From: Prochlorococcus sp. AG-686-J21
GTDB taxonomy: Bacteria; Cyanobacteriota; Cyanobacteriia; PCC-6307; Cyanobiaceae
Direction of reading: 5' to 3'
Assembly: GCA_003210285.1 (NCBI GenBank)
Contig: QCVS01000012.1
Coordinates: forward strand, 1 to 51,096
DNA length: 51,096 nucleotides
The position numbers and the translations under genes were made by a program. Shown here piece after piece: positions 16,667-21,116 of the stretch. The notes below the pieces were generated by a model. It was not told the origin of the DNA. It worked only from the letters and a program-made list of their open reading frames with translations, and searched no databases. The stretch's first letter is position 1, and every line of letters starts with the position of its first letter.

Positions 16667-19132
16667 ATGAAGGTCTCTCAGAATTGGTTGAAAACCCTTG
16701 TAGAAATAAATACTACACCAGACGATTTATCTGAAAAACTATCAATAGGTGGTTTCGAAGTTGAATCACTTGTTGATTGTTCAGCAAATGTTAAGGGTAT
16801 AATTCTTGGGAGAGTTTTATCAGTAGTTAGACATGAGAATTCAGATAAATTATCTATATGCAGTGTAGATATAGGAAGACCTAATCCTTTACAAATAATT
16901 TGTGGAGCAAAAAATGTAAAGCAAAATATATATGTTTATGTAGCAACCATTGGTACGCATTTAAGTGCAATAAATTTAACTATTAAAAAGAGTGAAATAA
17001 GAGGGGTTTTTAGTGAAGGAATGATATGTTCGCTAGAAGAATTAGGAATTGAAGAATCTAGTGAAGGTATCGCTATTATTGATGAAGATATAGCTTTAAA
17101 ACATAAATTAGGTACAAAAGGAGCTGATTTACTTAATCTCAACGATTATATCTATGATTTAGCGATTACTGCTAATAGACCTGATGGAATGTCTGTAGTT
17201 GGCATCGCAAGAGAAATATCTGCTCTCTTGGAAACAAAGTTAAACTTTCCAGATTTAGAAACTAAGTATAAAATCAATGTTTATAAAAATTTTGATCTCT
17301 GCTCTAAGGCGATTACAACAAATTGTCTTTATTCAATTTGCAATATTGATTCTGTCAATGGCAAGGAATTATCTCCAGCATGGCTCAAAGATCGTTTAGA
17401 TAAATCAGGAATTAAATCTATTAATCTCATAGTAGATATAACTAACTACATTCTTTTAGAACAAGGACAACCATTACATGCATTTGATAAAGACAAATTA
17501 TCTAAATTAATTGGGCGTAAGGTTTCATTTGAAGATTTTTCTGTGAGAAAGGCAAATAATAATGAAAGCCTTTTGTGTTTGAATGGTGAGAATTATAAAC
17601 TAAATGAAAATATAACTATTATTGCTTGTGATGATAAACCGGTAGCTATAGCTGGTGTAATAGGTGGTTTGGAAACAGCTGTAAATGAGAACACTTCTTC
17701 AATTTATCTTGAAGGAGCAGTTTTTAATCCAGCTACCATAAGAAAATCATCAAAAGAAATAGGAATTAGAACAGAATCTAGTAGCAGATATGAAAAAGGA
17801 ATTTCTTTTAAAAATACATTAGATTCAGTTACCCGCGCTGTTAACATTCTAGAAAAATACTTTAATATTTCTCATCCAATAATTAATACTTCCATAGAGT
17901 TGGATTCCACAAAAATACAAATACCGTTGAGAAGAGAAAGAATTCATAAAATACTTGGTCCAATTGTAATAAGAAATGAGAATTACGATACTAATGGTAA
18001 ATTTGAAAAAAGATGTTTATTAGATACAGAAATAACAGACAAATTAAAGCTTATAGGTTGTACTTTAAATATTAAGGAATATGGATGGGATGTGGAAATT
18101 ATTTCCAATAGGTCACAGGATTTATTACGAGAAATTGATTTAATAGAGGAAATTGCAAGATTAATTGGTTACGACATGTTTGATTTGAATTTACCAAATC
18201 CTATTAATCCAGGAAAGCTTTCTTCCTCTCAAATAGCTTTAAGGAAGTTAAAAACTGGATTAATGGTTAGTGGATTCAACGAGGTATTGTCTTATTCACT
18301 TGTGCCAGAAAGTAATAATGATTTAATCAAGATTTCTAATCCATTGCTATTGGAGACAAGTTGTTTAAGAGATAATATTTGGCAAGAACACATTAAAATA
18401 TGTAATCAAAATATTAAGTCAGGACATGACTATTGCTGGATCTTTGAAGTAGGAAATATATTTCATAAAGAACCTGATTTCTCACAAGAGGAAATCTTAA
18501 ATGGAGCAATTTATGGAAATAATAAATTTGAAAAGTGGTCAGGCTCAAATAAAGATAATAATTTGAACTATTTCGAGGCAAGAGGAAAGTTGAAAGAAGC
18601 ATTAGCAATATTAAATTTAAAAATAGAAGATAAACCAACTGATTCTTTAAATTTTCTTCATCCAGGCAGATCATCTAGATTATTTACTGAAGGTAATGAG
18701 ATCGGATATTTTGGTGAAATTCATCCAAAATTAATTTCTAATAAAAAGGCATTGAAAAAAATGTATTTATTCAGTATCAAAATAAACAATATCTTAAAAG
18801 CTAGCACCAGAAAACATAAGTGGATAACAGTTTACAAACAATTTCCAACTGTTCCAAAAATGCAACGTGATATTAATTTTATATTCAATAAAAAATATTT
18901 AGTAAGTGAAATAATCTCGCAAATAAAAAAATCTGGTAAAAAATTATTGGAAGATGTTAATTTAATTGATATTTACGACGATAGTAGTTTTGATAATGAA
19001 TTAATAAGTTACACATTTAGATTATCGTATAGAGATTCTGAAAAAACATTATTGGATTCTGACATTGCAGTTCTTCACGATAACATTGTTGAAGTAATAG
19101 AAAATAAATTCTCTACAAAATTGAGAGATTAA
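16667..19132 (+). CDS. pheT: Phenylalanyl-tRNA synthetase beta subunit
   Basis: This 821-residue beta chain pairs with PheS to charge tRNA-Phe. Domain order fits the bacterial type: tRNA-binding B1/B2-like fold at the start (residues about 40-150, GVFSEGMICSLEELG), B3/B4 editing domain (about 215-390, DITNYILLEQGQPLHAFD), B5, a catalytic-like core (about 510-690), and a C-terminal anticodon-binding FDX-ACB domain (about 725-821, PTVPKMQRDINF). The length is near the family average. The iteron-like arrays begin within about 10 bp of its stop. Confidence 0.97.
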   Translation: MKVSQNWLKTLVEINTTPDDLSEKLSIGGFEVESLVDCSANVKGIILGRVLSVVRHENSDKLSICSVDIGRPNPLQIICGAKNVKQNIYVYVATIGTHLSAINLTIKKSEIRGVFSEGMICSLEELGIEESSEGIAIIDEDIALKHKLGTKGADLLNLNDYIYDLAITANRPDGMSVVGIAREISALLETKLNFPDLETKYKINVYKNFDLCSKAITTNCLYSICNIDSVNGKELSPAWLKDRLDKSGIKSINLIVDITNYILLEQGQPLHAFDKDKLSKLIGRKVSFEDFSVRKANNNESLLCLNGENYKLNENITIIACDDKPVAIAGVIGGLETAVNENTSSIYLEGAVFNPATIRKSSKEIGIRTESSSRYEKGISFKNTLDSVTRAVNILEKYFNISHPIINTSIELDSTKIQIPLRRERIHKILGPIVIRNENYDTNGKFEKRCLLDTEITDKLKLIGCTLNIKEYGWDVEIISNRSQDLLREIDLIEEIARLIGYDMFDLNLPNPINPGKLSSSQIALRKLKTGLMVSGFNEVLSYSLVPESNNDLIKISNPLLLETSCLRDNIWQEHIKICNQNIKSGHDYCWIFEVGNIFHKEPDFSQEEILNGAIYGNNKFEKWSGSNKDNNLNYFEARGKLKEALAILNLKIEDKPTDSLNFLHPGRSSRLFTEGNEIGYFGEIHPKLISNKKALKKMYLFSIKINNILKASTRKHKWITVYKQFPTVPKMQRDINFIFNKKYLVSEIISQIKKSGKKLLEDVNLIDIYDDSSFDNELISYTFRLSYRDSEKTLLDSDIAVLHDNIVEVIENKFSTKLRD

Positions 19133-19142
19133 TTGTATTACT

Positions 19143-19193
19143 ATTCTTATATAAGACTTAGCAATAGTCTAGATATAAGACTTAGCTGATACA
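19143..19193 (-). repeat. Phased half-site array R1 (inverted relative to R2-R4)
   Basis: Half-sites ATTCT (19143), AGACT (19154), AGTCT (19166), AGACT (19178) and a weak ATACA (19189) follow at 11, 12, 12 and 11 bp. In reverse complement this block resembles R2 strongly, including the flank AGTAATAC, so R1 is an inverted copy. It sits directly between the pheT stop and the small secreted-protein gene, and may therefore overlap that gene's promoter. Confidence 0.75.
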
Positions 19194-19237
19194 AGTAACA
19201 TTCGTGTAAATCTAAGTAATCATATATAATAATACTC

Positions 19238-19486
19238 ATGTTAAATTTTCTCTCATTTTTATTATCCTCGGTTCTTTGGGTGCAAGTACCTCAATGGTCT
19301 GACGATTGGTCTAAATGTTCAGTGGATGTACCAGATTCTTCATGTCATTGGTACATAACAGCTCCAGACAATACCTTCGGAGAAGGGTTTGATTGGGCAA
19401 GTGCCCCTTGGTTTGACGCTAACGGATTGAGTGATGTACCTAGTATTGGTAAAGAAACCGCTCTACAAAAGCTTCAAATTCAGTAG
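19238..19486 (+). CDS. Small secreted hypothetical protein with Trp-rich mature part
   Basis: This 82-residue protein has a hydrophobic N-terminus (MLNFLSFLLSSVLWVQ) that looks like a signal peptide, although the basic residue before the core is missing. The mature part is rich in Trp, Asp and Ser (VPQWSDDWSKC, SSCHWY, GFDWASAPWFD) with two Cys that could form a disulfide. I do not recognise a family. It is bracketed by inverted copies of the phased arrays R1 and R2, and its stop lies in the left arm of a hairpin. Confidence 0.65.
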   Translation: MLNFLSFLLSSVLWVQVPQWSDDWSKCSVDVPDSSCHWYITAPDNTFGEGFDWASAPWFDANGLSDVPSIGKETALQKLQIQ

Positions 19487-19510
19487 TACTGTCTTTAAGG
19501 CAGTACCACT
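19482..19510 (+). terminator. Hairpin after the small secreted-protein gene
   Basis: AGTAGTACTG (19482-19491) pairs with CAGTACCACT (19501-19510) with one mismatch around a nine-base loop. The stop TAG lies in the left arm. A short AT stretch follows rather than a clean T run, so it may terminate transcription or only stabilise the 3' end. Confidence 0.5.
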
Positions 19511-19612
19511 TAATTTAAACAGTTGTCATTTCAACCCTTTTATTTCTGTAATTCTAATTTGGACGTGTAAAGGACAACCATCAACATGAATATCATTTAT
19601 ACTTTTATTTAT

Positions 19613-19663
19613 CTTCTTATATAAGAACCATTAGTAGACTATCATTAAGTCTAGAATGAGACT
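19613..19663 (+). repeat. Phased half-site array R2
   Basis: Five half-sites occur at 19613 (weak, CTTCT), 19624 (weak, AGAAC), 19636 AGACT, 19648 AGTCT and 19659 AGACT, with steps of 11, 12, 12 and 11 bp. TTCTTATATAAGAA keeps perfect dyad symmetry although its ends differ from R3, which suggests that symmetry is maintained. The flank AGTAATAC follows. It is the mirror copy of R1 around the secreted-protein gene. Confidence 0.75.
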
Positions 19664-19876
19664 AGTAATACTAATTTGCTCTATAAATACAATTTACTCT
19701 TCTACTTAGGGCGGGGTTGTTATTAGTCTTCAATTTTTCATATGTAAGAATTGTAATACAGGTTTATTTGTATTTACTTTATAAATTTAAATATCTAGTA
19801 TGCATTATTTAGGTTTAAATACTTTGTGAATTTAAAAGCTACTTTTATGGACTATTTATTATTTACTCTTCTATTA

Positions 19877-19927
19877 AGTCTTATATAAGACTATTATATA
19901 GACTATAAACAAGTCTCAGATAAGATT
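19877..19927 (+). repeat. Phased half-site array R3
   Basis: AGTCT (19877), AGACT (19888), AGACT (19900), AGTCT (19912) and AGATT (19923) are spaced 11, 12, 12 and 11 bp. The first two form the perfect 16-bp palindrome AGTCTTATATAAGACT. Orientation runs forward, reverse, reverse, forward, reverse, exactly as in R4. Confidence 0.8.
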
Positions 19928-20044
19928 AGTAATATCATATGTTTTGAATATTTATAGGAAATTGTTATGCATCATTTAATTTAGTCATTATTCAAAGTAA
20001 ACAACTACTTTTATAACTCTCCATAGTTCTTATTAATTCTCTTA

Positions 20045-20095
20045 AGTCTAATATGAGACTATAAAACAGACTAGTTATAAGTCTCAGTTAAGATT
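20045..20095 (+). repeat. Phased half-site array R4, next to the RHH/J-domain gene
   Basis: AGTCT (20045), AGACT (20056), AGACT (20068), AGTCT (20080) and AGATT (20091) repeat the 11-12-12-11 bp pattern and orientation of R3. The block ends eight bases before the stop of the RHH/J-domain gene (20103-20105). Confidence 0.8.
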
Positions 20096-20102
20096 AATAG
20101 TA

Positions 20103-21116
20103 TTACTTTCTATACATATTTTTAAGCAATTGATATGCATCATTTAGTTTTCTCATCTCATCAGTTGATCCACCTGAATCTGGATGAGTTTCTAAAGCTT
20201 TTATTTTATAAGCTTCTCTTATTTTATTTAATGTATGGGCTGATCCTGCGGCTGTTGATAGCCTTAATAATTTTAGAGCTCCATGAACAGACATTGTTGA
20301 ATCAAGGGCTTCGAATGAATTTCCTTTATTTTTTCTTTTAAACCTACTTATAAATCTTCTTACTAACGTTGGTACTCTATTTAATAAATCGGATGTTGCA
20401 AAAGGATCTTCTAATACCCCTATCATTAATATTACTAATTCTAAGGAAGGAGTTTGTTTTATCCAAAATGGGCATAAATCCGACATTAATTTATTAGCGG
20501 CACTCCAAGTAAATGGTAAGTGCTCGGTTCCATCAATATTTGGCCAAATATCTATACAAAACCAATCAATAGATGCTTCTATTACTTGTTGATTTGGAAT
20601 TGATCCATACAGAATTTTCCAATGGCTTATTATTTCTATTCGACACTTTATTAAATCATTTTCCTTAATCGTATTGATTTGAATATCATTAATTTTTTGT
20701 TTTGTCTTTTCAATATTTATACTTCTTCTTAGATTTTTAACTTTTTTTCCAACAAAATTAGGTAGGTTTATATTTAAGTTTGGTTTTTCAATAACTTCTT
20801 TCTTATTTAAAACTAGTTTTTCATCAGATTCTATACTAGTATTCTCATTCTTATCAGATTTAATTAGAACTAAAGCACTGTTTTCATCAAAATTAGAATA
20901 TTCACTTATGTTGCCCTTTTCATTATAGTCAATAGTCTGTTGTTGATTTTTAGGTAATAATTCATCTTCTTGAAGAATTTCTGTAAGCAACTTTTCTATT
21001 ACAGGACCTCTTGCTCTAAAACCCCATTCTTTTCGCAATTGATCAAACCGAGTAATTAACTCTTCTGGCAAATCAATAGAAATCCTCTTTGTATTTGAAT
21101 TCTCAGAATTACTCAA
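20103..21116 (-). CDS. Ribbon-helix-helix plus J-domain protein
   Basis: This 337-residue protein has an N-terminal ribbon-helix-helix-type domain (about 9-50: TKRISIDLPEELITRFDQL, GFRARGPVIEKLLTEIL), a long polar linker (about 55-150), a central region with conserved Trp residues (about 160-270), and a C-terminal J-domain-like part with helix and HPD motif (LETHPDSGGSTDEMRKLNDA, about 310-330). The HPD triad is what stimulates DnaK ATP hydrolysis in J proteins. Such a DNA-binding plus J-domain architecture is unusual. The gene stands alone on its strand, and its 3' end runs into the repeat region, which contains decayed copies of that end. The DNA target and partner are not known; binding to the neighbouring arrays is a hypothesis. 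Confidence 0.75.
   Translation of the reverse strand: MSNSENSNTKRISIDLPEELITRFDQLRKEWGFRARGPVIEKLLTEILQEDELLPKNQQQTIDYNEKGNISEYSNFDENSALVLIKSDKNENTSIESDEKLVLNKKEVIEKPNLNINLPNFVGKKVKNLRRSINIEKTKQKINDIQINTIKENDLIKCRIEIISHWKILYGSIPNQQVIEASIDWFCIDIWPNIDGTEHLPFTWSAANKLMSDLCPFWIKQTPSLELVILMIGVLEDPFATSDLLNRVPTLVRRFISRFKRKNKGNSFEALDSTMSVHGALKLLRLSTAAGSAHTLNKIREAYKIKALETHPDSGGSTDEMRKLNDAYQLLKNMYRK

Follow-up and report, generated by a model that had tools for sequence, protein, structure and literature searches.

A cluster of phased AGWCT blocks beside a ribbon-helix-helix/J-domain gene as a candidate chromosome-terminus site in picocyanobacteria

INTRODUCTION

How cyanobacteria mark, finish and separate the ends of their chromosomes is poorly known. 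A 51,096-nt contig of Prochlorococcus sp. AG-686-J21 (QCVS01000012.1), the whole of which was analysed and is called here the window, holds four near-symmetric arrays of short repeated sites between two convergent genes. What would bind such arrays, and what would they do there? We describe evidence that they may be the chromosome-terminus site so far missing in marine and freshwater picocyanobacteria. A conserved terminus site together with a candidate binder, in phototrophs as abundant as these, would make the question testable.

RESULTS

Structure of the blocks

The repeated unit is a 51-bp block of five AGWCT sites set at steps of 11, 12, 12 and 11 bp. The block is dyad-symmetric, with the axis on the middle base of the third site; when 50 blocks are combined into a consensus, a weaker GTCT-type site appears outside each block, 9 bp past its end. 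We ran the pattern AGTCT-11-AGACT-12-AGWCT-12-AGTCT-11-AGACT (maximum score 25) along the window. Two blocks on the plus strand, R3 (19877-19927) and R4 (20045-20095), scored 24/25; two others, R1 (19143-19193, minus strand, as read from the central A/T alone) and R2 (19613-19663, plus strand), scored 21/25. The runner-up places in the window (19842 and 15659) reached 17/25, and the top score in 200 dinucleotide shuffles of the window was 19, reached once. The four blocks reported by the initial annotation, with their 11-12-12-11 steps, are thus real, and its observation that the window has no equal array elsewhere holds. A sequence profile (see below) matched all four as well: R1 on both strands, R2, R3 with E 6.9e-13 and R4 with E 1.8e-11 (R3 and R4 both being within the training set).

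Two descriptions in the annotation needed qualification. R1 had been called inverted; it is indeed assigned to the opposite strand, but in a block so nearly symmetric the call depends mainly on the central base. Helical phasing had also been proposed; neighbouring sites do share a face of the DNA, but at 11.5 bp per step the two ends of a block drift apart by about one-third of a turn.

In the whole 1.58-Mb genome the shorter three-site pattern with at most two mismatches had nine matches, seven at this locus and two isolated on contig C2; no second array was found by this pattern search. The profile likewise gave nine matches at E ≤0.1 in the genome of the window; among those listed, eight were the four blocks matched on both strands.

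Neighbouring genes

The blocks occupy the gap between the convergent 3′ ends of pheT (phenylalanyl-tRNA synthetase beta, assigned by Pfam; 16667-19132, plus strand) and a gene (20103-21116, minus strand) for a 337-residue protein, an unusual putative co-chaperone with a predicted DNA-binding domain and the candidate binder of the blocks, which we call RHH-J. In the window the neighbours of the RHH-J gene are pheT and the gene for Ap4A phosphorylase. R1, which extends over ∼19134-19202 with its outer sites, is placed between the pheT stop and a small ORF of 82 aa (19238-19486, plus strand); R2 follows on the 3′ side of this ORF. R4 ends 7 nt from the RHH-J stop codon, and an equal gap was seen in 76 of 80 named Prochlorococcus loci. 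R3 and R4 belong to a 168-bp tandem unit (window positions 19869-20156) whose copies are 77% identical over 120 nt.

The small ORF has relatives in phages. Its region is matched by 183 phage records at E ≤1; the 20 phage matches listed, from Prochlorococcus and Synechococcus phages, cover the ORF and are labelled carboxylesterase or esterase, and the relative in P-HM1 adjoins hli and heme oxygenase genes. Many genomes of the genus have a second copy of the ORF elsewhere.

Conservation in Prochlorococcus

One set of loci consists of the small ORF's 30 best matches, the window included; each of the 30 carries three or four blocks at a threshold of 18/25. A second set was chosen by the RHH-J gene (the best 80 of 340 relatives) and tests block presence given the gene. 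In this set, all 80 named Prochlorococcus loci had two to four blocks downstream of RHH-J (three in 75, four in 4 and two in 1), and scores of at least 19 were confined to the 1.6 kb after the gene, the remaining 547,877 bases of these loci having none. In a set of 65 loci, AGWCT pairs at 11 or 12 bp were found downstream of RHH-J in 61, versus 0 of 65 in the 390 bp upstream. Allowing one mismatch at most, the three-site pattern was present in 38 of 101 genomes of the genus versus 15 of 101 for the reversed control.

Conservation in the picocyanobacterial family

As a test across the family the short three-site pattern was rejected: it was found in 38 of 200 genomes, and its reversed control also in 38 of 200. 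Since the short pattern did no better than the control, for the family we used only place and a profile derived from the sequences of 50 blocks. At E ≤0.1 this profile matched 85 of 101 family genomes and 27 of 31 genera; training blocks came from 24 of the 101, which match by construction, and the other 77 include 61 with a match. The matches listed comprise 88 distinct places in 42 of the 85 genomes, in one cluster per genome. RHH-J is no more than 3 kb away from 80 of these 88 places, and the remaining eight are in a genus without RHH-J; the 19 non-training genomes listed contribute 34 places (26 at RHH-J plus the eight in that genus).

A more sensitive search of the 16 unmatched genomes turned up five (G121, G151, G204, G207 and G206) whose RHH-J locus has weak matches (E 0.10-0.28); in G206 the better weak match falls inside the RHH-J gene and the other ∼1.3 kb downstream. 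G183 had a weak match only away from RHH-J. After both profile searches 10 of the 101 genomes were left with no block match, or 11 if G183 is added, G195 among them. Out of 30 loci, only 15 had more AGWCT in the ∼1.5 kb after RHH-J than any of 200 shuffles. Block-like sequences directly 3′ of RHH-J in GC-rich members (18/25 in G107, 14/25 in G134) are suggestive only.

The initial annotation had allowed that related genomes might lack the pattern or that shuffled DNA might match it; neither was found (80/80 loci, 85/101 genomes, 200 shuffles).

A near-identical AGTCTCACCYAGGACTAGCTACRAGACT occurs in four genomes of genus g8 (G107:C1:158887, G164:C1:173694, G183:C1:480482 and G293:C174:114); in G107, G164 and G183 it stands more than 100 kb from RHH-J.

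A phage or mobile origin of the array was considered and rejected. The four-site pattern had no exact match in IMG/VR, 14 viral loci retrieved with the RHH-J alignment matched the J-domain end only, and the blocks are not tied to the small ORF, common as it is to cyanophages.

Conservation as sequence

Across 243 blocks no covariation of symmetric positions was detected, either over the whole block or inside each palindrome; complementarity at symmetric pairs was about that expected from column frequencies, or below it at some of them. It is the sequence of the sites that is kept, an argument in favour of a DNA-binding protein. Of the two origins first suggested for the arrays, protein-binding iterons thus gain support from short sites and spacing kept across the family, mostly at one locus, and we regard a block, judging from its sequence, as probably a protein-binding site. 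Neither the suggested alternative, RNA hairpins, nor the proposed selection for dyad shape is supported, compensatory change being absent from the 243 blocks. R2 had been cited as a block that changes its first dyad and keeps symmetry; TTCTTATATAAGAA is symmetric, but over the 243 blocks paired positions do not covary.

The RHH-J protein

RHH-J consists of an N-terminal ribbon-helix-helix (RHH) domain (residues ∼10-47), a variable linker, a conserved middle region (∼155-290) and a C-terminal J domain, in which the HPD motif (H311, P312 and D313) is invariant (16 of 16). At E ≤1 the Pfam RHH_1 model matched the N-termini of 18 of 19 orthologues (best 1.3e-6); the domain of the window's own protein, with E 0.009 and 16.3 versus 20.5 bits, falls under the Pfam curated cut-off. 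The nearest RHH structure in PDB by sequence was NikR, a weak match both with the full profile (E 0.017) and with the domain alone (E 0.089). The predicted model of RHH-J, a monomer without the strand, is poor (mean pLDDT 50.6), with helices 18-31 and 36-47 at moderate confidence. RHH-J had no match to the MatP family in Pfam or NCBIfam.

Of the 101 family genomes, 93 have a match to the RHH-J gene; the other eight are G116 and the seven genomes of genus g7. When 290 genomes of the class were searched, none of the matches listed from outside the family was full-length, these being J domains. Several family genomes contain, at other places, short separate frames (54-125 aa) that carry a similar RHH domain (e.g. 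G127:C1:1403960 and G107:C1:392467).

In the predicted beta strand of RHH-J, R11 and D15 are invariant and S13 is nearly invariant. In an alignment by eye, R11 and S13 presumably correspond to Lys23 and Thr25 of MetJ. The consensus of MetJ, also an RHH protein, reads AGACGTCT (PMC13379313). AGWCT itself is nearly palindromic, which fits the expectation for an RHH dimer. Taken alone, the claim that RHH-J is the usual binder of the blocks has slightly better than an even chance; RHH-J is the leading candidate, short of proof.

Blocks without an intact RHH-J gene

In genus g7 searches with the protein, the full profile and the RHH domain alone found no RHH-J in any of the seven genomes, and six of the seven keep strong blocks (best E 4.4e-12) at other loci (L338-L343). 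The neighbours of these blocks, read by eye, are mnmE, ureC or nadC in four of the six; none was recognised in the other two. In G042, a Prochlorococcus, an RHH-J pseudogene with stops and an internal deletion (L041, 304-744) stands beside three intact blocks (22/25). These cases indicate that blocks persist, at least temporarily, without RHH-J; in g7 either another binder exists or RHH-J is not the binder.

Position on the chromosome

In all 48 single-contig genomes (20 genera) the locus lies at 0.33-0.50 of the chromosome from dnaN, with a median of 0.48 and a distance of at least 0.40 in 45 of the 48; three of the positions are approximate, many lengths were rounded, and the genomes are related and share gene order partly by inheritance, so that the 48 values are not independent and their KS p-value is to be read with caution. 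In all 45 single-contig genomes where both genes were located, pheT is convergent with RHH-J, the two matches being 0.8-6.4 kb apart. Because pheT never parts from RHH-J in these 45 genomes, it could not serve as an independent control gene.

Base skew agrees with the locus in three of six genomes sampled (G015, G138 and G195); G146, G134 and G172 were not decisive. In G015 the T-A skew has its maximum at 849 kb and the third-position G-C skew changes sign at ∼810 kb, with the locus at 829 kb; the plain GC skew in the same stretch has its extremes elsewhere, at 737 and 925 kb. In G138 the skew switches at ∼1.18-1.30 Mb and the locus is at 1.29 Mb. G195 is the clearest off-centre case: the locus, at 520 kb, sits at the skew switch (∼480-600 kb) and not at the dnaN antipode (214 kb); yet this genome has no profile match for blocks.

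The three blocks of G015, a MED4-like genome that we take to be P. marinus MED4, are located at 828,853-829,621. A re-analysis of MED4 vesicle DNA (PMC10913375) used a ‘ter’ window at 826,000-832,000 of NC_005072.1, which held 92,377 of 1,368,548 and 186,179 of 2,729,515 mapped reads, the median elsewhere being 0. Reads elsewhere had means of 3,050 and 16,381 with SDs of 13,221 and 60,827 (PMC10913375), and SDs this large imply that other vesicle-DNA peaks exist. Indeed, the peak ‘directly at the dif site’ is described in that text as the highest of several, and its dif position came from earlier literature (PMC10913375). When our coordinates are set against these data, the G015 blocks fall in the middle of the 826-832 kb ‘ter’ window. 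Support for a location at the terminus thus comes from base skew and from our own coordinates taken together with the published data on vesicle DNA.

DISCUSSION

In the reading that we prefer, the blocks would be a cis-acting mark of the replication terminus in picocyanobacterial chromosomes. Each block would offer five to seven successive sites for RHH dimers, at a spacing of ∼11-12 bp in the core, with two to four blocks usually clustered in the convergent gap between pheT and RHH-J. In most of the family RHH-J would probably contact AGWCT via its beta strand (R11, D15 and S13) and, on the blocks, build a large nucleoprotein complex. The J domain would then (a guess) recruit Hsp70 (DnaK), and Hsp70 would remodel or clear terminus proteins at the end of replication or during segregation. 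We infer both the binding by RHH-J and the function of the complex, and give this reading, a nucleoprotein site that marks the terminus and usually has RHH-J dimers bound to it, an even chance of being correct. A more ambitious version is rather unlikely: the cluster would act as a family-wide terminus ‘centromere’ onto which RHH-J loads, the J domain would bring Hsp70 to dismantle termination or division complexes, and breakage or over-replication would feed the vesicle DNA. If true, this would be a chaperone-driven terminus system without known counterpart. The array is also a concrete lead for the origin of terminus DNA in Prochlorococcus vesicles.

The main rival is a counterpart of dif, where a site-specific recombinase would resolve chromosome dimers and the blocks would be recombinase or accessory sites. 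The terminus position would suit it, as would the persistence of blocks where RHH-J is lost and the MED4 vesicle-DNA peak ‘directly at the dif site’ (PMC10913375); moreover, in a broad survey dif prediction failed in five of five Cyanobacteria tried, though XerCD was present (PMC3025954). Still, the 16-bp palindromic units come at least five in a row, against one 28-bp two-arm site for dif, and the blocks are multicopy while dif is single. We hold this explanation to be unlikely.

Lower again we place an array of transcriptional operators through which a local regulator would control pheT, the small ORF and RHH-J. R1 precedes the small ORF by 45-95 bp, a distance that hardly varies in the genus, as an operator might; but the remaining blocks are situated between convergent genes, at their 3′ ends, none of the 65 loci showed paired sites upstream of RHH-J, and the g7 blocks adjoin other genes. 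Such keeping of form beside different genes weakens the operator reading. The small ORF had no match in the examined loci of other genera, and other-genus loci without it retain the blocks; an operator for the small ORF alone was rejected on the latter ground.

We consider improbable a fork trap of the Tus/Ter or RTP/ter kind, with bound blocks halting forks at the terminus. The position and the presence of both block orientations (R1 versus R2-R4 in the window) would be in its favour, but the blocks are nearly symmetric, known replication-fork traps being polar, and those of the window, rather than flanking the terminus, are confined to a stretch of ∼1 kb. The palindromes AGTCTYATATRAGACT and the convergent gap might suggest RNA hairpins, be they terminators or small RNAs, but with 243 blocks free of covariation and a tRNA as the sole Rfam match in the window at the gathering threshold, we find them scarcely credible.

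Set against these alternatives, a terminus-marking nucleoprotein site can be compared with systems already described. We found no literature on an RHH/J-domain protein in cyanobacteria, and the array is undescribed in the titles and abstracts, partial in coverage, that we searched on the Prochlorococcus terminus and on dif/Xer and MatP in Prochlorococcus or cyanobacteria. Terminus systems are known, and so are RHH iteron arrays; neither their combination nor a terminus site for this family turned up in the literature searched.

In plasmid centromeres of the ParR/parC type, RHH dimers bind iterons ∼11 bp apart beside the gene of the protein. Here too the gene of an RHH protein adjoins phased iterons (except in g7), whereas this array is chromosomal, at the terminus and downstream of the gene. 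MatP of the MatP/matS system (enterobacteria, Vibrio) has an RHH domain, and the system likewise joins a short palindromic site and a DNA-binding protein at the terminus, with sites concentrated there, as in our 48 of 48 genomes (0.33-0.50 from dnaN). The matS site is 13 bp long and present in 23 copies over 800 kb (PMC3330122; PMC7394560). Thus matS is scattered, while Prochlorococcus has two to four composite blocks in ∼1 kb; in addition, RHH-J joins an RHH to a J domain and has no MatP-family match in Pfam or NCBIfam. XerCD/dif offers a cis site at the terminus and the vesicle-DNA peak (PMC10913375), but differs in site anatomy and in having a single 28-bp dif against the multiple block copies found here. 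ZapT of Caulobacter, like the candidate binder proposed here, is a terminus-binding protein distinct from MatP; it belongs to the MerR family (PMC7858052), unlike RHH-J.
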